Assembly (NCBI RefSeq): GCF_001050375.1
Contig: NZ_KQ130486.1
Location: forward strand, 1 to 60,616
From: Catenovulum maritimum
GTDB taxonomy: Bacteria; Pseudomonadota; Gammaproteobacteria; Enterobacterales; Alteromonadaceae
Length of the DNA stretch: 60,616 bases
Direction: 5' to 3'
Each line of letters opens with the position of its first letter. Position 1 is the stretch's first letter. Positions 49,131 through 60,616 of the stretch are shown here, one piece after another. The position numbers and the translations under genes were made by a program. A model generated the notes under the pieces. That model saw nothing but the letters and a program-made list of their open reading frames with translations. It was not told the origin of the DNA and did not search any database.

Positions 49131-52076
49131 CTATAAAGGTTTAATTGAACCTTCAACTATACTGCCAGAAAAAGCCTCAAGTAGAGTTTGAACTTTTTCA
49201 TCTTGCTGAATGAGCTCTTCAGCGTAATCTTGCCTAGAAGCATCAATTGAGCGTTGGATTTGAAATGGCGTATCTTGAATTTTACCTTCAATTGTCACTT
49301 CAAGTTCAACATCTAATTGTAAAACTTCTTTAATTTTAGATTTTAAAATTTGTCTATTATGCTCTGTATCTAAATGCTTTTGACCTTCGTCTAGCTTTAA
49401 ATTAATTTTATTCGCTAAGTTTGTACAGCTAGAATGCAGTGCAAACTGTCTTTGTAACCCCATTAAGCCAAGCGATTCAACTAACCTAGCCCATTCATCA
49501 ATTTCAAACGACTTGCGTACGCCTTGCCTAACTTGCTCTGCGAGTTCATTACCCGAAATTGGCGTTTCAGCTAGCGGCTGATTTAAATTGTCTGGGCTAA
49601 AATTTTCTACTGGCTCGACAGTTTGAGTCGCTAAGCTTTCTGTTGCCGTTTGCATTGGTGTTGATGATAGCGTTTGTGGTTCTACTTCGGCTACCTCAGG
49701 GTTAGCTGAGTTCTCTATCGGCTCAGCTGGAATTGCTTGTTCATCGCCAAATAAATTACCTGAAAAGTGATCAACCCAAGGCGGCGCGTCGTCTTCGAGT
49801 TCGTCTGCTTGGCCTGTTTCACCAAATCCGCTAATCGGCTGAGCAGGCAAATCATCTAATCCGTAAGCTGGTGTGATTTCTGCTTGAGGCGTTAGCTGAG
49901 GCGTTGCGCTTGCCTCAGTTTGCTCTGTATGTGCAGCGGTATTTACTGCTGTTGTCACATCTGTGTTCGCTTCGTTATTGGCTTCAGTCGTGGTTTCTTT
50001 AGCAATAACTGGCGCTGCAAATTCAGTTGTACCAGATTGAGCTTTATCTATTTCAGCGCTTTTCTGCTGGCGCTTATTTCTAAGCCCTTGCATAACGTCC
50101 AGCATAGACATAGTGACTTCAACCTGTTCACTACTTTCGGCCTCGGTTGGTAATTTTGCTACTGCAGCTTGTGTGTCGCCGAATAAGTCTGTCGAATCGG
50201 CCATTTCTTCATCGTCAGACTCGACTTGGTATGCATAATCTGCATATTCGTCGTATTCAACCGAAGCGACAGGCTCAGCTTGCGCGCCTTGCTGATTTGG
50301 CTGAGTGGTTTCCGTTTCAACCTGTGTATCTTGAGCTACTGCAACGTCATCTGTTTGTGCAATTTCAGTAATTTCTTCTACGTCTTGCGAAATGGTTTGT
50401 TTTGCTGATTCAGCTGGATTTGGTGATGTAACCAGTGCTTGACCTTGGGCAACTTCTTGACCCTCTAGCGGCGCTTTCTGTTGCGAATCATTTTCAACTA
50501 ATTTGTTTTGGTGTTGCGATTCAGCTAAATCTAAAATCTGTGCCTGCTGTGCTTCTAATTCGGCTGCCGATATCGGCTGAGTTTCGCTCGTTTCTGGCGC
50601 TGGAGCTAATTCGTCAACGGCTGTCTCAGATTCAAGCTGAGGTTCTGGTTCAATCTCTGATTTTAACTCTGGTTTTAACTCTGGTTTTAACTCTGGTTCA
50701 GAGCGAGATTCCATCGCTTGTTCTGGTTGGGCTTCAGTCTGCTGAGTTGCTTCTGCTGCTGTATCAGTTTGGCTTTCTTCGCCTTTCTGAGTTTCAGATT
50801 TTTCAGCTTTTGCAGTTTTTTCAACGGCTTCAGTGCTCGTTAATTCGATTGATTCTGAGGCGGTTTGCTCGGCAATTCTATCTGCTTGGATTGTATCCGG
50901 TTTTGAAGTTTGCTCAGCTGGATTCACTTCGTCGGTATTTTCAATTAGCAGTTCAGACTTTTTTGCTTTAAAAACCTCTACTCGTTCTGTGCTGACAGGC
51001 GAAAATGCAAGCATTCGCATTAATGTCATTTCGAGCCCAACTCTAGGGTGTGCTGCAAAAGCCAGATCGCGTCTGCCTTTTAAGCAAACTTGGTAATAGA
51101 GTTGAATTTGTTCTGCAGGTAGGGTTTCTGCAGCTTGAGTTAATATTTCCGCAATGGATTCGTTCATTAATGCAAAGCTTGGTAAGTTTTGTACCAAGGC
51201 AATTTGGTGAAAGCAATTCATTAACTCAATTAAGACTTGCTCTGGATCGACAGCTGCGTGAGATAGCTCAGCAATAGCCTCCATGACTTGTTCTAAATTA
51301 TTATTCAGTACAGCTTTGAGCAGTTTGCTAATGTGCTGTTCTTCAAGTAGGCCCAGCATATTTCTAACGGTTTCTGCTGATAGCTGGCCATTACCTTGTG
51401 CAATCGCTTGATCTGTTAAACTTAACGCGTCTCGCATGCTGCCATTGGCCGATTTAGCGAGCTGAACTAAGGCTTTCGCTTCAAAACTAATTTTTTCTGC
51501 ATTTAAAATTTTATCGAGCTGGGTTTGTATTTGCTCAAGCGACATGGCTTTTAAGCTAAATTGTAAACAGCGCGATAGAATCGTCACAGGTAGTTTTTGT
51601 GGATCAGTTGTCGCAAGCAAAAACTTAATATGCGGTGGTGGCTCTTCTAAGGTTTTTAACAAGGCATTGAAAGAGTGACGTGACAACATATGCACTTCGT
51701 CAATTAGATAAACCTTGTAACGACCTTGAGTCGGTCTGTATTGGACGTTATCTAAAATTTCGCGAGTGTCTTCTACCTTGGTTCTAGATGCCGCATCCAC
51801 TTCGACTAAATCAACAAAGCGTCCTTCATCTATCGCGACACAGTTTTTACACTGGCCACATGGCTCAGCACTTACGCCATCGGCGCAGTTTAAACTCTTT
51901 GCAAAAATGCGTGCTATTGTCGTTTTACCTACCCCACGAGTTCCCGTAAATAAGTAAGCGTGGTGTAACCTGTCGTTAGATAATGCATTTGTTAAAGCCG
52001 CAACAACATGCTCTTGGCCCATTAATTGAGCAAAGATTTGTGGTCGCCACTTTCTAGCCAGCGCTTGATAACTCAT
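49131..52076 (-). CDS. dnaX: DNA polymerase III subunit tau (dnaX)
   Basis: Clamp-loader ATPase that links the polymerase cores and helicase. Walker A is [12 protein letters not shown], with the zinc module [16 protein letters not shown] and DEVHML. The ATPase part ends near residue 370. The C-terminal domain (from about residue 860, [33 protein letters not shown]) binds the alpha subunit. Between them lies a very long, acidic, Gln/Glu/Thr/Ser-rich linker, so the protein (981 residues) is much longer than E. coli tau (643). An internal -1 frameshift site would also give the short gamma form. Confidence 0.96.
50659..50698. repeat. Short tandem repeat inside dnaX linker
   Basis: Three copies of a 12-bp unit (GGTTTTAACTCT on the plus strand), encoding KPEL repeats in the tau linker. 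Being a multiple of three, slippage here would change the linker length without breaking the frame. Confidence 0.75.
50953..50979 (-). promoter_or_regulatory. Programmed -1 frameshift site in dnaX (gamma subunit)
   Basis: On the minus strand the slippery heptamer A AAA AAG (50964-50958) lies in frame after codon GCA (residue 371). An AGAGG Shine-Dalgarno-like stimulator stands exactly ten bases upstream. After a -1 shift the ribosome would read GTC then the stop TGA (ending 50953), giving a gamma form of about 374 residues. E. coli dnaX has the same heptamer and an upstream stimulator. No downstream stem is obvious. Confidence 0.82.
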
Positions 52077-52084
52077 ATATTAAT

Positions 52085-52633
52085 TTACTCGCCTTCAAAT
52101 GAAACTAAACTAAAAGGCTCTATGTTTAGCTGCTTTAATTTATCTTCTCCGCCTAAATCAGGTAAGCTGATAACAAAAGCAGCGTGATTTACCTTGGCGC
52201 CTAACGAACGAACTAGCTTAACTGAGGCTTCTATCGTCCCGCCAGTTGCGATGAGATCATCAACTAGCAATATGACATCATTTTCGTCCAGTGCATCTTT
52301 ATGTATATGGAGTTCATCTTCGCCATATTCAAGTTGGTATGATTGACTGATAGTTTCTCTTGGTAGTTTGTTTGGTTTGCGCGCTAATACGAAGCCGCAA
52401 CCCAGTTTATTAGCGACAGCAGCTCCAAAGATAAACCCTCGCGCTTCGGCACCCACGACTTTAGTAATCCCCATATTTTTATATGGTTCAACTAAAGCAT
52501 CGACAGATTTAGCAAATGCGTCGCCATTTTCGACTAATGAAGTCACATCTCTAAATTGAATACCGGCTTTGGGATAGTCAGGAATTGTTTTTATACTGGC
52601 TTTTATTTCCGCCAAGATTTTACTGTCTGTCAT
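52085..52633 (-). CDS. apt: Adenine phosphoribosyltransferase
   Basis: Purine salvage: adenine plus PRPP gives AMP. The PRPP-binding motif [22 protein letters not shown] is in the last third, and [15 protein letters not shown] earlier. The start is the ATG giving [14 protein letters not shown]; an in-frame GTG three codons upstream coincides with the ribosome-binding site. It is 9 bases upstream of dnaX on the same strand; apt-dnaX-ybaB-recR is a conserved order. Confidence 0.95.
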
Positions 52634-52740
52634 TTCAAACACCGTAAAAGAAATTAAGAAAGGAATTAAAACAAACTATGGCAGAAATGCAATAGGGATC
52701 AGCGAATGAAAAACAATAAAGGAAGTTAGAATAATAAAAC

Positions 52741-52762
52741 GCAGCTTAAAAAATTAAGCTGC
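52741..52762 (-). terminator. Terminator overlapping the end of the CheY-like gene
   Basis: GCAGCTTAA / TTAAGCTGC with a 4-base centre, then CGTTTTATT on the minus strand. The left arm is inside the last codons of the response-regulator gene. Confidence 0.72.
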
Positions 52763-53122
52763 ATCTACGACGAGTGTCTGATTAATAAAATCTTCAATCG
52801 ATTTTCGATTAACCGGTTTAGCAAGCCAATTAATCGCTAATGATTTAGCCTTATTTTTAAATTCATGGCTGTTGTCTGTCGTCAGCAATAAAATCTGCTC
52901 TGCTTGGTAATCTAAACTGTTTTCTAGATTATCAATTAACTTTAAGCCATCGATATACGGCATTTTATAATCAGTTATAACTATGTCGTACTTATCTGAT
53001 TTAGCTTTATTAAAGGCTGTAAGGCCATTTTCAGCTTCATCGATCTGAATTGGAAATTGACTTAAATAACTCGCAATTTCAGCTCTAACTTGAGCGTTAT
53101 CTTCAACTAATAATAATTTCAT
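52754..53122 (-). CDS. Stand-alone CheY-like receiver protein
   Basis: A 122-residue single receiver domain with no output domain. The acidic pair is in LLLVEDNAQV, the phosphoacceptor Asp in VITDYKMPYIDG (near residue 51), the Thr in LLLTTD, and the conserved Lys in LAKPVN. No histidine kinase or methyl-accepting receptor is nearby. It lies downstream of the HvfABC-like cluster on the same strand, separated by an inverted repeat, so a functional link is open. Confidence 0.85.
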   Translation of the reverse strand: MKLLLVEDNAQVRAEIASYLSQFPIQIDEAENGLTAFNKAKSDKYDIVITDYKMPYIDGLKLIDNLENSLDYQAEQILLLTTDNSHEFKNKAKSLAINWLAKPVNRKSIEDFINQTLVVDAA

Positions 53123-53245
53123 ATTTCTACCCTGAATTACTTTTCAGACTTAGCACCACTTTGACCTATGGTAATCTGAAAAAGTTTCAATTTAGCTAAG
53201 CTAAATTCCTTATTGTAATTTTGTTTATATTTTTCTAATGATTTT

Positions 53246-53281
53246 GAATATTTTATCTAAAACTAGTTAGATAAAATATTC
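53246..53281. repeat. Perfect 15-bp inverted repeat at the end of the 41-aa gene
   Basis: GAATATTTTATCTAA / TTAGATAAAATATTC with a 6-base centre (AACTAG) that contains the stop codon region of the small gene. Its AT-rich arms and position suggest a bidirectional terminator, but it could also be a protein-binding site for the CheY-like gene promoter. Confidence 0.65.
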
Positions 53282-53388
53282 AACCAACCTAAAATTGCTG
53301 GTAATAACGGTAAAGCAACAGTCACAACAGCAGCTAATAATAGATGCGTGATGTTTTCGTTTCCGCCTTGTTCATCATGATGAGACAT
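53263..53388 (-). CDS. 41-residue His-containing membrane peptide
   Basis: Short open frame with a strong ribosome-binding site (GGAGTATTTT then ATG). The protein begins MSHHDEQGGNENITH, followed by one membrane segment (about residues 16-35). It lies in the same orientation, 125 bases downstream of the DUF2063 gene of the HvfABC-like cluster. The His-His-Asp start could bind metal, but this is only a sequence impression. No known family recognised. Confidence 0.5.
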   Translation of the reverse strand: MSHHDEQGGNENITHLLLAAVVTVALPLLPAILGWLNILSN

Positions 53389-53512
53389 AAAATACTCCTA
53401 TTTTTGATGGCGCGTATTCTAGACAATGCCACTTAAAAAGCCAAATATTATTATGTTATAGTTTAAATATCTGCAAAACAGATCAACTACAAGCAGAAAG
53501 CTTTTGCGTAAA

Positions 53513-54238
53513 TCAGTTCCAATTCAAGATGATACCGAGCGAGCTCAGCGTATCTAAATTTTCTTTTAATCCGGTTTTTATCTGCATTTCACCAACTTGC
53601 GGTAGTGCCTGAAGCATACAACTTAATAACGAGTCAAAACTGGTCGCAATATCTTTTTCAATTAAATCTAGCATATACACACTGGCTGAATTAATTTGCA
53701 AAAATTTCACCTCATATCCCTCATCTCGATAAACCACAAGATAAACAGGATCGGATGGTGCTTGCGGTTGGAAATCTTGAGATATTTGATGCACTGGGTA
53801 TGGGTAAGAAACGATACTTGCTAATGCTGAAACTTGTAACTTGCTTGTATCAATCCCTTGCTCTGCTGAATCTTGTCTAATGGATACGTCTAGCTCTAGC
53901 CATTCGTAATGAGCTAACTCCCGCATGAAGATAGGATCGCTATCACATAATTGATATTCGTCTGTAATAAAAGCTAAAAACTCTTGGGGGATCTCAGAAA
54001 ATATCGGCGTTTCGCTAGCATGCTGAATAAAAAATTGTCTCATTAACTTTTGCCAGTTCGCTTCTGAGTAGAGGCTTTTCAATACAGGGAAAGTATTTTC
54101 AATAAACCCTGAGACATTGTTAATAAATAAATCTTGATAAATTTTGAGTCGTCGAGCTTCCAGTTCACTACATAAACCAGACTCAGCTTGTCTAATTGCG
54201 TTAGCAAACTCAATTTGCTTTTGTTTAAAATCCGACAT
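53513..54238 (-). CDS. DUF2063 partner protein of a RiPP-modifying MNIO (HvfC/BufC-like)
   Basis: A 241-residue protein of the DUF2063 family, which accompanies DUF692 (MNIO) enzymes and is thought to bind the precursor peptide and present it to the enzyme. The N-terminal domain (QIEFANAIRQAE...RRLKIYQDLFINNVSGFIENTFPVLKSL) is the conserved helical part. A C-terminal mixed domain follows. It begins directly at the stop codon of the DUF692 gene (TAG-ATG, no gap), so the two are tightly coupled. Confidence 0.85.
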   Translation of the reverse strand: MSDFKQKQIEFANAIRQAESGLCSELEARRLKIYQDLFINNVSGFIENTFPVLKSLYSEANWQKLMRQFFIQHASETPIFSEIPQEFLAFITDEYQLCDSDPIFMRELAHYEWLELDVSIRQDSAEQGIDTSKLQVSALASIVSYPYPVHQISQDFQPQAPSDPVYLVVYRDEGYEVKFLQINSASVYMLDLIEKDIATSFDSLLSCMLQALPQVGEMQIKTGLKENLDTLSSLGIILNWN

Positions 54239-55063
54239 CTACTTCTCCAAATGCTGAGCTTGGATAGTGTGAATTCGGTTCATCTCTTTAATTAAATCAG
54301 CGACCGATGGTATGTTAAAATCTCTTTCGAGCAGAGTTGGAAACACGCCGTGCGTTTTATAAGCATAATCAAGAAGCTGCCAAACCGGTTCAATGACATC
54401 TGCACCATGGGTATCAACTATTAGGTCATCCGCTTCATTGTAATGCCCTGCAATATGACCATATACAATTTTTTCACTTGGCATCGCAGCTATAAAATTT
54501 TTAGCATCATAATTATGATTAATCGAATTTACATAGACATTGTTTACATCTAATAGCATTAATGCACCAGACTTTTTAAGTATGCTTTGAGTGAATTCTA
54601 TTTCGCTAATTTCTTGCGACAATGGTGTGTAATAAGAAACATTTTCTAACACTAGAGGCCTTTGTAGTATGTCTTGGACTCTTTGTATTCTTGCTACAAC
54701 ATAATCCACAGCCTGGTTAGTGAAAGGAATTGGCATCAGGTCGTACATGTGACCATTTGCAGAACAAAAACTTAAGTGCTCTGAGTAATAAAGGATTTGG
54801 TATTCATCTAAAAAAGATTTTACTTGTTGGACAAATTTTTCATCTAACTCGTCTGGACTACCAATAGATAAAGATAAGCCATGGCAAACAAATTTATGCT
54901 GTTGAGCTAGGCGTGAAAAGTTAGCATGATAACGTCCGCCTAATGTCATCCAATTTTCTGGGGCGACTTCCATAAAATTGATGCTGTCAGGCACTTGCGA
55001 AATAAAGTCATCTAAAAAATCGCGTCTTAAACCTAAACCTGCGCCATAAAAATTGTTCTGCAT
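54239..55063 (-). CDS. DUF692/MNIO enzyme (HvfB/BufB-like), predicted Cys-modifying iron enzyme
   Basis: Member of the multinuclear non-haem iron-dependent oxidative enzymes. Relatives convert Cys in precursor peptides to oxazolone-thioamide or similar copper-binding groups. Metal-ligand residues are visible in CHGLSLSIG, YYSEHLSFC, LVLENVSYY, LLDVNNVYVNSINHN, VYGHIAGH, VDTHG and LLERDFN. The start giving MQNNFYGAGLGLRRDF is preferred because GGATTAAGA stands before it; an upstream ATG adds six residues. About 274 residues. It acts in the cytoplasm before the precursor is exported. Confidence 0.87.
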   Translation of the reverse strand: MQNNFYGAGLGLRRDFLDDFISQVPDSINFMEVAPENWMTLGGRYHANFSRLAQQHKFVCHGLSLSIGSPDELDEKFVQQVKSFLDEYQILYYSEHLSFCSANGHMYDLMPIPFTNQAVDYVVARIQRVQDILQRPLVLENVSYYTPLSQEISEIEFTQSILKKSGALMLLDVNNVYVNSINHNYDAKNFIAAMPSEKIVYGHIAGHYNEADDLIVDTHGADVIEPVWQLLDYAYKTHGVFPTLLERDFNIPSVADLIKEMNRIHTIQAQHLEK

Positions 55064-55090
55064 TCTTAATCCATCGTTCATTTAAAACAG

Positions 55091-55120
55091 AAAATAAAAA
55101 AGGTGACTGAAGCCACCTTT
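55091..55120 (-). terminator. Internal terminator/attenuator between precursor and MNIO genes
   Basis: AAAGGTG / CACCTTT with an 8-base loop; on the minus strand the stem is followed by six T and then ATTTT. It lies in the 84-base gap between precursor and enzyme gene. Partial read-through would make much more precursor than enzyme. Confidence 0.72.
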
Positions 55121-55147
55121 AATCTTTATCTATCCAAATACATTAGT

Positions 55148-55639
55148 TTATTTGGCACCACACTTGCCTTCACCACATTTAGCTTCTTTGGCTGCTTTAC
55201 CGCCACATTTGCCTTCACCACATTTAGCTTCTTTGGCTGCCTTACCGCCACATTTGCCTTCACCGCATTTTGCTTCTTTGGCTGCTTTACCGCCACACTT
55301 GCCTTCACCGCATTTTGCTTCTTTATCTGCTTTGCCGCCACATTTGCCTTCGCCGCATTTAGCTTCTTTATCTGCTTTTCCGCCACATTTGCCTTCGCCG
55401 CATTTAGCTTCTTTATCTGCTTTGCCGCCACATTTGCCTTCACCGCACTTAGCTTCTTTATCTGCTTTACCGCCACATTTGCCTTCGCCGCACTTAGCTT
55501 CATGAACGAGCACTTCATAACCCGTCGATAACGCTTGCACAGAAAAAGGTGAAGCATTTGCAACGTTAGTCATAGATAAAGAACCAACCACTACCGCACC
55601 AAGTGTTGCTGCCATTGTATTTTGTTTTAAATTTTTCAT
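55148..55639 (-). CDS. Secreted Cys-rich repeat precursor (HvfA/bufferin-like RiPP)
   Basis: A 163-residue protein, start giving MKNLKQNTMAATLGAVVVGS, preceded by an AGGA ribosome-binding site. A Sec-type signal ends near ANA-S (about residue 29). After about 17 residues, eight repeats of EAKCGEGKCGGKADK (last four units AAK or truncated) fill the rest. Each has two Cys in the pattern E(A/G)KCG. EGKCG is the motif modified by MNIO enzymes in HvfA. Predicted role: copper buffering or protection. The enzyme genes follow at once. Confidence 0.85.
   Translation of the reverse strand: MKNLKQNTMAATLGAVVVGSLSMTNVANASPFSVQALSTGYEVLVHEAKCGEGKCGGKADKEAKCGEGKCGGKADKEAKCGEGKCGGKADKEAKCGEGKCGGKADKEAKCGEGKCGGKAAKEAKCGEGKCGGKAAKEAKCGEGKCGGKAAKEAKCGEGKCGAK
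55151..55501. repeat. Tandem 45-bp coding repeats in the precursor gene
   Basis: Seven full 45-bp units and a 36-bp last one. Units 1-4 (high coordinates) end in ADK; units 5-7 end in AAK. DNA identity between units is high, with mainly third-base changes, so copy number is likely to vary between strains. Confidence 0.92.
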
Positions 55640-55742
55640 AATTTTAATCCTAAGCAATCATAAAATAAGTTCATTACCTTTAAAGACCTTGGAATATTTT
55701 TTTAAATTTCATTGAAACTAAATTTTATAATAAATAATTTAT

Positions 55743-55756
55743 TTGACGTAAATCAT
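55743..55756 (+). promoter_or_regulatory. FNR-like site upstream of the TraR/DksA-type gene
   Basis: TTGACGTAAATCAT matches the FNR/CRP-type consensus TTGAT-N4-ATCAA at 8 of 10 defined positions. It ends 57 bases before the zinc-finger gene. It also lies between that gene and the divergent HvfA-like gene, so either could be controlled. Purely a sequence match. Confidence 0.4.
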
Positions 55757-55813
55757 TATCGGGCAAACCTAAATAAGTAGACTAGTCCAACCTATTATTA
55801 ATGGACTGAGACT

Positions 55814-56176
55814 ATGACATCATACGAGCATACAGCTAGATTAAATCAATCGGCTCTATTTAAAATAAGAAGTCAGGTTTTTAATAATCTTATTTTACAG
55901 CTACTTAACTCTGACAATTTATCAGATAAACAAACCGCTTTACAGTTATTAGGTATTAATAATGATGAGCAATTAGAGTTGTTAGAGAAAGAGTTTCATT
56001 CTCGATTTGAAGATAAGATAGAACTACTTGAAAAAATTGAAGCTTCTATTAGTCAGATAGAGATAGGTTTATACGGTACTTGTGCCAAATGCGACGAAAA
56101 TATTGAGCAGAGTATTTTAAATCAACACCCATATGCTCAATATTGTCAAAGCTGCCAATCTGAAGATACGCATTAG
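55814..56176 (+). CDS. TraR/DksA-family zinc-finger protein
   Basis: A 120-residue member of the DksA/TraR superfamily, proteins that bind the RNA polymerase secondary channel. The C4 zinc finger CAKCDENIEQSILNQHPYAQYCQSC is at the C-terminus, with the typical IEIGLYGTC lead-in. The coiled-coil is shorter and lacks the clear DxxDxA tip motif of DksA, so a DksA function is uncertain. It is divergent from the HvfA-like gene. Confidence 0.8.
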   Translation: MTSYEHTARLNQSALFKIRSQVFNNLILQLLNSDNLSDKQTALQLLGINNDEQLELLEKEFHSRFEDKIELLEKIEASISQIEIGLYGTCAKCDENIEQSILNQHPYAQYCQSCQSEDTH

Positions 56177-56203
56177 TCGGCTTCAGATATCAAAGCAGAC
56201 TAA

Positions 56204-57049
56204 TTAGCTAGGTTGGACTAACCACTCTAGCTTATGATAAGCCGCAGCATCTTGAGCCATAGTCTGAGTTAAGCTAGGCAATATCTGCTCTAATTGCTTA
56301 TCAAGTTGATAAGGTGCATTGATAATTGCCATACCTGAACCATGCATACCGAATTCGGTTTCTTGCTCAGACACACACATCTCACTAATCAGTAAATTCT
56401 TCACAGGTAATTCAGCAAGTTTGCGGGTTAACCATTCGCTGCGGTCTCGCTCTGCAGCTAAAATTGGATACCAAATCGCAAATATCCCAACCGGCCATTT
56501 TGCGACACTTGATGCGACCGCTTTTACAACTTGAGCATAATCGTCTTTCACTTCATATGCAGGGTCAATTAGAGCTAAGCCTCGAGCTGGCTTAGGTGGT
56601 GTTATGGCGACTAAACCTTCGAACCCATCTCGATGATGAATTGATACCCTGTCGTCACCGCGCATGTTTCTTTTTAGTTCGCGGATCTCGTTATTATGTA
56701 ACTCGATTAGATTTAATTGATCTTGAGATCTGAGTAGCTCTTGAGCAAGTTTAGGCGAGCCTAAATAAGTCTGGCTTGCTAAACCACTTTTCACTAACTC
56801 TAAATAAGGCGCAATAAGTGGAATTTCAGCTATTGTAGATTCTGATAAGCTGACTATGCCTGATTGGTATTCTTGAGTTTTATTGGCTTCATCAGAAGTT
56901 AAATCATAAATCCCTGCCGCGCTATGAGTATCGATATAACTAAAAGGTTTGTCTTTCTGTTTAAGTTTTTCTATTAACAAAAACAAAACAATATGTTTTA
57001 ACACATCTGCGTGATTGCCAGCATGAAAGCCATGTTTATAACTTAACAA
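56204..57049 (-). CDS. rlmJ: 23S rRNA (adenine2030-N6)-methyltransferase RlmJ
   Basis: Methylates A2030 of 23S rRNA. The N-terminus MLSYKHGFHAGNHADVLKH and the catalytic motif LIDPAYE (DPPY-like, here DPAY) are typical of RlmJ. SAM-binding residues are around THSAAGIYDL. At 281 residues the length is normal. Stands alone on the minus strand; the stretch 57050-57241 upstream holds no gene. Confidence 0.93.
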   Translation of the reverse strand: MLSYKHGFHAGNHADVLKHIVLFLLIEKLKQKDKPFSYIDTHSAAGIYDLTSDEANKTQEYQSGIVSLSESTIAEIPLIAPYLELVKSGLASQTYLGSPKLAQELLRSQDQLNLIELHNNEIRELKRNMRGDDRVSIHHRDGFEGLVAITPPKPARGLALIDPAYEVKDDYAQVVKAVASSVAKWPVGIFAIWYPILAAERDRSEWLTRKLAELPVKNLLISEMCVSEQETEFGMHGSGMAIINAPYQLDKQLEQILPSLTQTMAQDAAAYHKLEWLVQPS

Positions 57050-57241
57050 AATTTAAATTCTCAAAAATTAGTCTTGTGTTAATTGTACCTAACCAACAAA
57101 CTAAAACCAATGAAAGGCTTAAACTAAAAGGGTTTAGCACTAAAAATCATACAAAATGATAAAAAATGAGCGAAACTTACAAAATTTATACACTTTATAC
57201 ACTTATTTACATAAAAATGATGGAACTTTCTCTTAATAAGA

Positions 57242-57270
57242 TTGACTAAACATGAAACAAATTGTTAACA
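57242..57270 (+). promoter_or_regulatory. Promoter of the small secreted protein gene
   Basis: TTGACT, 17-base spacer, TTAACA: a good sigma-70 pair about 35 bases before the start codon. Confidence 0.55.
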
Positions 57271-57304
57271 TGTCGTTAATCTCAAGAAAAAAAGGTGGCT
57301 TATC

Positions 57305-57811
57305 GTGAAAACGAATTCAAATAAACTATTCGGAAGCTTAGCTCTGATGTTTTTATTGCCATTTAGCAGTCAAGCTGAAGAACAAACATCAAGCTCAAGT
57401 GAATTATCTGTTGATGATGATACAGTTAAATTAGCACTCAAAGTAAATAAAAAGCTAATTGAGCAAGATTTAATAGAAGTAGAAAAATTACCAGCTTTAG
57501 ATCTGCAAAATTTATCCGCTTATCAAAATCATTTGGAGTACTACTTTCAAGAGTACCTACCTGTCACTAAAAATGAAGGTGAACCAGTTAATTTATCAAT
57601 TAAATCTGCTGCTGTTGAAGGTGAAAGTTTAGTGTTTAATCTTGAAGCACCACTTGCTGATGCAGATAGCTTAAGTATTAACAATCGTATTTTATTTGAT
57701 ACTAATTCAGATCAGGTAAATAAAGTATCAGTTTCTGACAATCAATATACCTTTACTAACATAGTTGATGAGCCATTAATGGTATGGCAAAAAGGTGCAG
57801 ATATTAGCTAA
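57305..57811 (+). CDS. Secreted protein of unknown function
   Basis: A 168-residue protein with a Sec signal (MKTNSNKLFGSLALMFLLPFSSQA, cleavage near QA-E). The mature part is acidic, rich in Ser and Leu, with no Cys. An AAGGTGG ribosome-binding site precedes the ATG. It ends at the shared terminator facing lysC. No family recognised. Confidence 0.62.
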   Translation: MKTNSNKLFGSLALMFLLPFSSQAEEQTSSSSELSVDDDTVKLALKVNKKLIEQDLIEVEKLPALDLQNLSAYQNHLEYYFQEYLPVTKNEGEPVNLSIKSAAVEGESLVFNLEAPLADADSLSINNRILFDTNSDQVNKVSVSDNQYTFTNIVDEPLMVWQKGADIS

Positions 57812-57844
57812 CAAATTAGCCGCAAGGTGAAACATTAGCTAAAT

Positions 57845-57873
57845 AAAAAAGGCTTCAATTTGAAGCCTTTTTT
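57845..57873. terminator. Bidirectional terminator between the secreted-protein gene and lysC
   Basis: AAAAAAGGCTTCA / TGAAGCCTTTTTT, nearly perfect, with A- and T-runs on both sides. Serves both converging genes. Confidence 0.9.
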
Positions 57874-57895
57874 GTATTCGATGGTTTGCTACAGT

Positions 57896-59248
57896 TTAGA
57901 TACTATCAAACAATTGCTCGTGTAAATGTTCCACAATTTTTGGCGCTTCTGCTGTTTTCGTTAAGAAACAGAAGTTATGCGGGCTAGCACCTTGACATAT
58001 CATACGTAAGCTAAAGTTTTCTAACGCACTCAATAATTTACCGCCTACACCAGAACTCGCTTGTAAATGGTTACCAATAACAGCCACAAGAGATAAATCT
58101 TCTTCTACTGTCACTTCACAGAATTCTTCTAATTCAGCAATAACAGATTTACTTAAACCACCTAGTGTTGCATTAGAAGGGTTATCCAATGTTAACGCAA
58201 TTGAAATTTCTGACGTTGTGATTAAATCAACACTGATTTTGTTTTTTGCTAATATAGCAAAAACTTTAGCTAAGAAGCCGCTTGCAAGTAACATGTTAGG
58301 GCTTTTAACTGTAACTAAGATTTGCTCTTTTCTCAAAGCGATTGCGCGATAAGCTGGCTTATTATCTACTTGGTTTAAAATCCAAGTGCCACCATCTTTT
58401 GGTGCACGGCTACTACCAACAAACACGCCTATACCTTTACGAATAGCTGGAATTAAAGTCGCTGGGTGTAATATTTTTGCACCGAATGTCGCCATTTCAG
58501 CTGCTTCATCAAAGCTAATTTCAGGAATAGGACGAGCTGCTTGAGTTAAACGAGGATCTGTTGTGTAAATACCTGTTACATCTGTCCAAATTTGTAAGGT
58601 TTCAGCGCTTAAAGACTCAGCGATTAATGCAGCACTGTAGTCACTGCCACCACGACCTAGTGTCGTTGTATATCCATTTTCATCAGAGCCGATAAAACCT
58701 TGGGTGATAAAAACAGTACCTTCAAGCTCTGGCGAAATTAACTTTTCAGCTTGCAGACGCGTTTGTTCGATATCAGGTTCAGCCTTGCCATAATTGCTAT
58801 CTGTTTTAAGCACTTGGCGAATATCGAAATTAACTGCGTGAACCCCACGCTGACGCATGATTTCTGCAAACAACAAAGAAGACATTTGCTCGCCATAAGA
58901 TTGAATTTGATCTTTAAGGCGCATTGAGCCAACTAAGTTTTCAGAATTAGCTGTCGCTTTAAGTTCATTTAATAAATTATCTAGTGCTAGTGTTACCCAC
59001 TCAGGACGTCCTAACTGCTCGATAATTTTATATTCTGTGGCGCGAATGTCCGCTAAGATTTGATCTCGCTCTTCTTGAGTTACGTCTAGCTGAGTCAATC
59101 TAACAAGTTTGTTTGTCACACCAGATTGTGCAGAAACAACAACAACACGTATATTAGAGTCTGATTGAACTAAATCAGCACAACGTGACATAGCTTCAAA
59201 ATCGGCGACGCTTGTACCGCCAAATTTAGCAACAGTAAGATTTTTCAT
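57896..59248 (-). CDS. lysC: Aspartokinase III (lysine-sensitive)
   Basis: Phosphorylates aspartate in the first step to lysine, threonine and methionine. The N-terminal VAKFGGTSVADFEAMSR and the GRGGSDYSAALIA region are diagnostic; ACT domains follow at the C-terminus. At 450 residues the length matches E. coli LysC. It is the lysine-feedback type, and a lysine riboswitch upstream fits that control. Confidence 0.95.
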   Translation of the reverse strand: MKNLTVAKFGGTSVADFEAMSRCADLVQSDSNIRVVVVSAQSGVTNKLVRLTQLDVTQEERDQILADIRATEYKIIEQLGRPEWVTLALDNLLNELKATANSENLVGSMRLKDQIQSYGEQMSSLLFAEIMRQRGVHAVNFDIRQVLKTDSNYGKAEPDIEQTRLQAEKLISPELEGTVFITQGFIGSDENGYTTTLGRGGSDYSAALIAESLSAETLQIWTDVTGIYTTDPRLTQAARPIPEISFDEAAEMATFGAKILHPATLIPAIRKGIGVFVGSSRAPKDGGTWILNQVDNKPAYRAIALRKEQILVTVKSPNMLLASGFLAKVFAILAKNKISVDLITTSEISIALTLDNPSNATLGGLSKSVIAELEEFCEVTVEEDLSLVAVIGNHLQASSGVGGKLLSALENFSLRMICQGASPHNFCFLTKTAEAPKIVEHLHEQLFDSI

Positions 59249-59252
59249 GAAA

Positions 59253-59265
59253 TATCCCCGGGATA
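59253..59265 (-). promoter_or_regulatory. Small hairpin over the lysC ribosome-binding site
   Basis: A 13-base palindrome (TATCC-CGG-GGATA on the minus strand) includes the GGGGA ribosome-binding site 5-8 bases before the lysC ATG. It could hide the site when the riboswitch is closed. Confidence 0.45.
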
Positions 59266-59309
59266 AAATATTATCTTTAGGGAAAGCAAAGGCTGAAGAT
59301 ATTAGTTGG

Positions 59310-59500
59310 ATTTAATAACACTGCCGAAAGCTCTCCACCCTTAATTGGTGACAATTGCAAGGATTCAACCTCAACAACCGAAGTAATATGTCCTAAGCAT
59401 ATTAACTCCTCGGCGATCACTCCCCTCGCTAATTATCTTCAAAGCTTAGACTTTTCCAATTAACTACCTGAGTTTCGCACCTCTTCCGATCTTAAACTAA
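59310..59500 (-). ncRNA. Lysine riboswitch (L box) upstream of lysC
   Basis: Minus-strand sequence holds the conserved L-box words in order: GGAAGAGGTGCGAAACTC, then AGCGAGGGGAGTGATCGCCG, and at the 3' end GGTGGAGAGC with CGGCAGTG. The total span of about 190 bases fits the family. It sits directly before lysC, the usual target. Boundaries are approximate because I did not fold it. Bound lysine would lower lysC expression, here likely at translation since no terminator is evident before the ATG. Confidence 0.86.
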
Positions 59501-59748
59501 GCCATTATTTGACTAAAATTCATTTAAAAAAATGAACAGCCGCTTAAGATTCGCGCGCATTAAAAAGCATATAGATGAAAAAATCAACTGTTATTAATAA
59601 TAAATCCTTGGATGGCGGTTTTTCATTCTGTTTTTAACAAAATAGCTACCATATTGCTTAAATTCAGCTAAAGTTTGTATATTAGAGACAGATAAATAGT
59701 TATCTCATATTTATTTAATTTTTCAGTATTCCGAAATCATCTATATCC

Positions 59749-60616
59749 ATGACTGATAATAAAAAAACTCCAAATTCAGAATCAACAAAGCCGATTGCGA
59801 GCAAAGCTATTGCTGAAGATTTTGATCTACCAGAATTAGAATTATTAGATGATGATGAGTTATCTTTTACCAAAGCCGGTTTAGTATTACCTCATGACGA
59901 TGAAGAAGTTGTTGAGTTACCTGACGATTTTGAATTTGAACTCAATGATATTGATATCTCTGAAGACAATTCTGCACTATCGGATGATTTATCAGAATAC
60001 GACGAATCTGAACTCGCTGTTATTGACGACTTGCTTAGTGAAGATTCTTCCGATCTCAAGTTACAACTTACCGAAGTCAGCTTAGATGAAATAACACCGA
60101 GTGATAGTCATTTAGCGCAAGCATTTATGGATGACTTAGATGATGAACTTCCAGATGCCCCAGCGGATTCTGCAACTCCAAATCTTATCGAAAGACATGC
60201 CCAGCATATAGAAAACACCAATAATATTGAAGATGAAATCAGCCTAGATGTCGAGTTAGAGTTAGATGATGAATTTGACGTCGAAATAGAAATGGATTCG
60301 GAGCCTGCACCTGAACTTTCGCTGGACATAGAAGCTGATGCAGATGATGAGTTAGACGTCGAACTAGACATCGACTTAGAAATAGATTTGGAACTTGCAC
60401 CAGAGCTAGCGCCGGACATAGAAGTTGATGCAGATGATGCGTTAGACGCCGAACTAGACATCGACTTAGAAATAGATTCTGAACCTGAGCTAGCGCTTGA
60501 TGTAGAAGCAGATACAGATGATGAATTAGACGTCGAACTAGACATCGAATTAGAAATAGATTCTGAACCTGAGCTAGCGCTTGATGTAGAAGCAGATACA
60601 GATGATGAATTAGACG
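59749..60616 (+). CDS. Highly acidic repeat protein, N-terminal part only
   Basis: The open frame begins MTDNKKTPNSESTKPIASK and is still open at the window end (289 codons seen). Most residues are Asp, Glu, Leu, Ile and Ala. From about residue 165 on, units of 28-30 residues repeat (ELDVELDIDLEIDSEPELALDVEADTDD-like). No signal peptide is visible. Such acidic stretches occur in large adhesins, cation-binding and scaffold proteins, but no domain is recognisable here. Divergent from lysC. Confidence 0.75.
   Translation, partial: MTDNKKTPNSESTKPIASKAIAEDFDLPELELLDDDELSFTKAGLVLPHDDEEVVELPDDFEFELNDIDISEDNSALSDDLSEYDESELAVIDDLLSEDSSDLKLQLTEVSLDEITPSDSHLAQAFMDDLDDELPDAPADSATPNLIERHAQHIENTNNIEDEISLDVELELDDEFDVEIEMDSEPAPELSLDIEADADDELDVELDIDLEIDLELAPELAPDIEVDADDALDAELDIDLEIDSEPELALDVEADTDDELDVELDIELEIDSEPELALDVEADTDDELD
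60241..60616 (+). repeat. 84-90-bp coding repeats in the acidic protein gene
   Basis: The word TTAGAC recurs at 60352, 60442, 60526 and 60610, so the spacing is 90, 84 and 84 bases. Nucleotide identity between the last two units is very high. The repeat array continues beyond the window. Confidence 0.88.

Follow-up and report, generated by a model that had tools for sequence, protein, structure and literature searches.

An hvfABC-type operon of Catenovulum maritimum with a sixteen-cysteine precursor and a hairpin between its precursor and enzyme genes

The DNA analysed here, a 60,616-nt stretch of the Catenovulum maritimum genome (hereafter the window), contains on its minus strand three consecutive genes encoding a cysteine-rich repeat protein, a DUF692 enzyme and a DUF2063 protein. 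The locus raises the question of which kind of peptide-modifying cluster this is, and whether its precursor, which a first-pass annotation described as unusually regular, sets it apart from known relatives. Our answer is that the locus is, with a probability of about 0.9, a chromosomal hvfABC operon (captophorin, oxazolin or Buf_EGKCG) with a copper-sequestering product; this figure excludes the attenuation considered in the last section. The operon is an ordinary, well-kept member of the known HvfABC/captophorin kind, to which a hairpin and an unlinked HvfX gene are modest additions.

Table 1. Features of the hvf locus and of related genes (window positions unless stated otherwise)
Feature	Position	Strand	Description
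hvfA-like precursor	55148..55639	(-)	163 aa; NF050137 KCGExKCG_twice 112.6 bits (cut-off 19.5)
Terminator-like hairpin	55099..55120	(-)	9 pairs, TTCA loop, then TTTATTTT tail; in 66-base hvfA-hvfB gap; possible attenuator
HvfB-type MNIO (DUF692; multinuclear non-haem iron enzyme)	54239..55081	(-)	280 aa; NF003818 423 bits (cut-off 360); PF05114 343.6 bits; 3BWW E 3.1e-67
HvfC-type DUF2063/RRE partner	53513..54238	(-)	241 aa; NF050145 257.4 bits (cut-off 142); PF09836 and PF22106; 3DEE E 1.3e-11
Conserved membrane ORF of 41 aa with one helix (by eye)	53263..53388	(-)	downstream of hvfC; belongs to apt-dnaX block, not to operon
HvfX-family DoxX gene	L144 5109-5738 (G000 contig C22)		beside phosphate-transporter-like protein (by eye); away from sole MNIO match

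Gene content and family of the operon

The genome (4.55 Mb in 47 contigs) contains a single MNIO match, that of the operon. The stop codon of hvfB directly abuts the start codon of hvfC, with no base between them, as the first-pass annotation had noted for the DUF692 enzyme and its DUF2063 partner, and the placement of the genes in the HvfABC family is borne out by the HvfB, HvfC and KCGExKCG_twice models, all of which score above their cut-offs (Table 1). The narrower equivalog model for HvfA sensu stricto (NF050188) gives the precursor 54.5 bits, below its cut-off of 95, unlike the oxazolin HvfA of nontypeable Haemophilus influenzae (PMC13419390). Relatives are also encoded by 354 plasmid records, all of them with <60% identity; a plasmid origin or spread finds little favour, as the position ahead of apt-dnaX is stable in most of the genus.

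The remaining half of the name first given to the cluster, bufferin, deserves separate consideration. The BufB model matches the MNIO at E 3.8e-80, and the enzymes of the bufferin and EGKCG groups were not separable in the landscape analysis of PMC12452194, so that a Buf1/Buf2 bufferin might be considered in place of an HvfABC/EGKCG cluster. However, the BufB match reaches only 269 bits against a cut-off of 310, whereas the HvfB model passes. In addition, the precursor carries KCGExKCG repeats and, since a Pfam scan of it at E 0.001 gave no match, no DUF2282. A bufferin proper is therefore very improbable.

The catalytic residues lead to the same family. Across the rows of an MNIO alignment (the window's sequence and 62 from loci L006-L067, duplicates kept), residues H67, H102, E146, D178, N180, N181, H209, D223, H225 and E252, which we take to be the metal ligands, are present in 63 of 63 cases, and the same motifs occur in 3BWW, a solved structure matched by the MNIO (3DEE being that matched by the partner protein). 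As judged by motif, N180 or N181, D223 and H225 match the experimentally tested N175, D242 and H244 of HvfB (PMC13419390). The Arg-Arg and Asp-Phe active-site residues of Lys-Cys MNIOs are present as well: R19, R20, D254 and F255 are kept in 63, 62, 63 and 62 of the 63 rows, and from their motifs we infer that they are the equivalents of FonB Arg15 and Arg16, which confer selectivity, of Asp249, the base, and of Phe250, also an active-site residue (PMC13097082).

Clusters combining an MNIO with PME1 occur in about half of the Pseudomonadota reference genomes (PMC13097082), and several described systems resemble the present one. Fontiphorin FonABC of Fontimonas thermophila likewise consists of an MNIO, a PME1/DUF2063 protein and a Lys-Cys repeat precursor, although FonA has seven sites (PMC13097082) and the window precursor has sixteen with a strict 15-residue period. 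The oxazolin operon HvfABC(X) of H. influenzae shares the HvfB and HvfC families, the paired KCG motifs and, as far as can be judged by eye, the signal peptide, whereas its HvfA has six cysteines in three AEGKCGEGKCG motifs (PMC13419390). The mmrABC genes of Microbulbifer encode, as here, two-cysteine cassettes, an MNIO and a DUF2063 protein, and four hydrogens are lost per cysteine in that system; the mmr precursors contain five to eight cysteines, again compared with sixteen here, and the word DoxX is absent from the main text of that report (PMC12538549). The Buf_EGKCG/oxazolin group, mostly from Pseudomonadota, shows a varying number of two-motif repeats and reaches 58 cysteines; its repeat spans 17 residues with two EGKCG motifs (PMC12452194), in contrast to 15 residues with one EAKCG and one EGKCG in the window.

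The precursor array and the fate of its cysteines

Behind a putative Sec-type signal peptide, judged by eye from its basic N-end, hydrophobic stretch and ANA-S, the precursor continues with a SPFSVQALSTGYEV stretch and eight EAKCG-EGKCG pairs. These eight EAKCG and eight EGKCG motifs account for all 16 cysteines, and none is found elsewhere in the protein. The array had been described as eight 15-residue units, each with both motifs; the motif pairs were counted correctly, but only seven units are full, the eighth being shortened to 12 residues (EAKCGEGKCGAK). At the DNA level, Tandem Repeats Finder reports a period of 45 with 7.6 copies, 93% matches and a score of 541, and a KCGEG-encoding pattern matches the genome eight times, always inside this array. 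Comparison of adjacent units over their entire length gives 17 synonymous and 3 nonsynonymous codon changes, and in the ten core codons the 28 unit pairs together show 70 synonymous and no nonsynonymous differences, a zero that is partly due to construction because the units were chosen by their exact core peptide. As the eight chosen units contain all 16 cysteines, no diverged unit was missed. This pattern of synonymous-only core differences points to selection acting on the peptide.

We then place the array among its relatives in 60 genomes (own genome included); 43 of them gave an MNIO match at E 0.001 and 29 an HvfC above cut-off. A precursor ORF with KCG repeats is present at 59 of the 63 MNIO loci (L005-L067, own locus included, not de-duplicated), yielding 54 distinct precursors; the four exceptions are L007, L031, L034 and L059, the first two of which are located at a contig end or close to one. 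The 54 distinct precursors commonly carry paired KCG motifs, with the pairs mostly spaced by 15-28 residues, and 217 of their 268 adjacent motif pairs are EGKCG-EGKCG and 40 are EAKCG-EGKCG. The EAKCG motif is found in all seven distinct Catenovulum precursors (eight genomes; none was read in G005), and strict EAKCG/EGKCG alternation is seen at the Catenovulum loci L005, L009 and L010/L035. Within the genus, L008 has one ESKCG, L027 ends with an EGKCG pair, and L006 and L011/L036 are irregular; outside it, EAKCG also comes first at a Psychrosphaera locus (L061). The alternation is, as far as these sequences indicate, a habit of the genus Catenovulum, and the claim of unusual regularity is not supported by the comparison. 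As the relatives typically share this regularity of the precursor and studied peptides come close to it, the find is sound but ordinary.

The region after the signal peptide is also conserved in a loose manner: phenylalanine, four to seven residues, L/M/V and then G with Y, F or S occur in 54 of 54 distinct precursors, the pattern ending in GY except at L038 (GF) and L066 (GS). HvfBC was reported to act preferentially on full-length peptide that still carries the signal sequence (PMC13419390). An AlphaFold2 model of the precursor, based on an 8-row alignment, had a mean pLDDT of 41 and a pTM of 0.21, with all 163 residues below 50, and thus speaks neither for nor against a published beta-helix model. 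The unequal motif spacing inside single precursors appears to fit badly with the fixed rung length of such a helix, because spacings such as 16, 16, 16, 22, 28 and 26 occur at locus L017.

By analogy with published relatives, HvfA would be made with its Sec signal peptide and gripped by HvfC via the RRE domain, and HvfB, an iron-dependent MNIO, would oxidise every Lys-Cys-Gly cysteine to a 5-thiooxazole with a loss of four hydrogens each. Up to 16 rings could thus be formed on HvfA, corresponding to a total loss of approximately 64 Da, and the modified product would reach the periplasm and sequester copper there.

Whether both motif types are substrates, a question raised by the first-pass annotation, is already answered in print for FonA67-80 (SGEAKCGEGKCGEK), a segment of FonA in which EAKCG is followed by EGKCG: both cysteines are modified, with 8 H lost, or 4 Da per Lys-Cys motif, and non-proline substitutions at position 2 are tolerated (PMC13097082). 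MmrA similarly loses 4 H per cysteine across three two-cysteine cassettes (PMC12538549). EAKCG and EGKCG are therefore both very likely to be modified in the window precursor too. A mixed chelator, in which the EGKCG cysteines alone are modified and the EAKCG cysteines are left as free thiols or disulfides, could be argued from the far greater frequency of EGKCG (531 versus 52 EAKCG in the 54 distinct precursors). This reading is nevertheless improbable, given the modification of both motifs in FonA67-80 together with the tolerance at position 2 (PMC13097082), the share of EAKCG-EGKCG among the adjacent pairs given above, and the constancy of the core peptide in the window array despite many synonymous changes.

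Neighbouring genes and the location of HvfX

A DoxX-type membrane protein, often linked to such operons, had been reported as not seen. This is true locally: phmmer searches with three DoxX proteins found no DoxX ORF in window positions 50001-60616 or in ten stretches from relatives (L068-L077). For the genome as a whole the remark is misleading, because a whole-genome search found three DoxX genes, one each on C2, C21 and C22 (C5 being the contig of the operon), and the gene on C22 is an HvfX (235.2 bits; cut-off 80), with those on C2 and C21 scoring below the cut-off. The operon is thus of hvfABC rather than hvfABCX composition, with HvfX on another contig, in contrast to H. influenzae, where HvfX, termed uncharacterized, lies within the operon (PMC13419390).

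HvfC and HvfX both exceed their cut-offs in 24 of the 60 genomes (own included), with HvfC alone in 5, HvfX alone in 9 and neither in 22 (Fisher P 3.3e-5, uncorrected for shared descent). This co-occurrence is only suggestive, because of the uncorrected descent and because HvfX also adjoins other MNIOs, for example in G014 (HvfX at 1495519, MNIO at 1496638). In 16 of the 24 genomes with both, the two genes are on separate contigs, and in the other 8 the distance between them is 226 kb or more; different contigs of a draft genome are not strict proof of distance, and here hvf lies approximately 53 kb inside a 233.5-kb contig. Three of the five genomes with HvfC only belong to the genus (G001, G002 and G007), and a search for HvfX in the near-complete G007 gave no match, which limits models in which HvfX is essential.

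The position of the hvf locus before apt-dnaX is kept in most of the genus, and between hvfC and these genes lies an unannotated ORF of 41 codons, conserved before apt-dnaX in Alteromonadales (seen at L068-L073, L075-L077 and L108-L123) and with a His-rich N-terminus (M.HH) in the genus. Five members of this ORF gave no match in Pfam and none above cut-off in NCBIfam; matches to it occur in 45 of the 60 genomes at E 0.05 and in 42 at 1e-5 or better. It follows hvfC at 48 of 62 loci (L006-L067, not de-duplicated), as would be expected of a fourth operon component replacing DoxX/HvfX. However, in all 16 additional stretches fetched, which were selected by a match to the ORF and derive from genomes without HvfC above cut-off (15) or from G007, whose hvf locus is elsewhere, the ORF precedes apt-dnaX, and a receiver-domain gene often separates the two. 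In G007, it is missing from the hvf locus (L074) and present beside apt (L108), and nine of the 17 genomes without an MNIO match contain it at E 1e-5 or better; the fetched stretches include those of seven of these nine. Of the 14 hvf loci without the ORF, L018, L022 and L061 are still beside the receiver gene or apt, and at the other 11 apt is absent from the often short stretch that was read; L028 has the ORF and no apt within its short stretch. A role as fourth component was therefore rejected as very unlikely, the ORF preceding apt-dnaX even without hvf nearby, and the ORF is an apt-dnaX neighbour.

Other genes in the vicinity were also recorded. A stand-alone CheY-like receiver protein (52754-53122, minus strand) is encoded between the 41-aa ORF and apt, and it is found there in further Catenovulum genomes and in some other genera as well. 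The precursor gene is closely preceded by a divergent gene for a DksA-like zinc-finger protein (55814-56176, plus strand), in place of which six other genomes of the genus have an ORF of 424-427 aa with ExbD-like ORFs (ExbD by eye). Farther away are a signal-peptide-like protein with a DUF6702 match (57305-57811, plus strand; 37.7 bits, cut-off 24) and a tandem array with a period of 84 and 3.4 copies (60329-60616) that reaches the end of the window.

A recurrent hairpin between hvfA and hvfB

The gap between hvfA and hvfB contains a terminator-like hairpin (Table 1), in a window region where five terminator-like sites were found against 2.7 (sd 1.5) expected, a mild excess. Its recurrence was examined with a rule demanding a single hairpin with a folding energy of at most -8 kcal/mol and at least five T in the next eight bases. 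For relatives, each gap was measured from the stop codon of the precursor gene as far as the MNIO's GxGLG motif and so includes a few hvfB codons. A KCG frame was present at 60 of the 63 loci by a looser test, which admitted L031; L029, L065 and L066 had no MNIO start and were dropped, leaving 57 gaps, 54 of them distinct and 8 shorter than 60 nt.

The rule is satisfied by 37 of the 46 distinct gaps of at least 60 nt (own included), or 37 of the 54 of any length, many of these loci being from Alteromonas and not independent. In 20 shuffles (dinucleotide-preserving, with a plain fall-back), by comparison, 0-3 gaps scored, and same-length controls gave 4/46 and 1/46 inside hvfB and 4/45 upstream of hvfA. 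The antisense strand of the gaps scored in 15 of 46 cases because hairpins are symmetric. With a narrower start pattern and a threshold of -6 kcal/mol, the count had been 26/36. Hairpins with differing stems are present at loci of Catenovulum, Paraglaciecola, Pseudoalteromonas (L042 and L044), Shewanella and Psychrosphaera. The hairpin is absent from 17 of the 54 distinct gaps and thus cannot be essential; these include five of the seven gaps of the genus (L008, L009, L010, L011 and L027), four of which measure only 17-29 nt by this definition. It was not found at the Pseudoalteromonas luteoviolacea loci L053-L056 and L058.

Partial termination behind a precursor gene occurs in other peptide operons, and the sequence here suggests that such attenuation may act behind hvfA. 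The hairpin would halt a part of the transcripts and leave the precursor in excess of the enzyme, an excess that fits one enzyme pair working many sites in turn. The stem and T tail equally resemble a standard terminator, and the hairpin could instead be a full terminator followed by a separate hvfBC promoter, or serve only to protect the 3' end of hvfA. This alternative is possible but less likely, as the gap is only 66 bases long and a scan limited to the sigma-70 consensus found no promoter-like site on its minus strand.

Attenuation at this junction can be extended, tentatively and at slightly less than even odds, to a general proposal: in EGKCG-type MNIO operons of several Alteromonadales genera, a recurrent partial terminator between hvfA and hvfB, whose stem turns over and whose place is kept, may set the precursor-to-enzyme ratio on which arrays of many cysteines would depend. 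Neither PMC12452194 nor PMC13097082 uses terminator, attenuat, hairpin or stem-loop in its main text, and a literature search judged by title found no paper on terminators or read-through in MNIO operons.

The operon adds a clean sixteen-site example to the class of copper-binding peptides and indicates that HvfX need not sit in the operon. The recurrent hairpin, in turn, offers a simple idea of how the dosage of precursor and enzyme may be balanced in this family.
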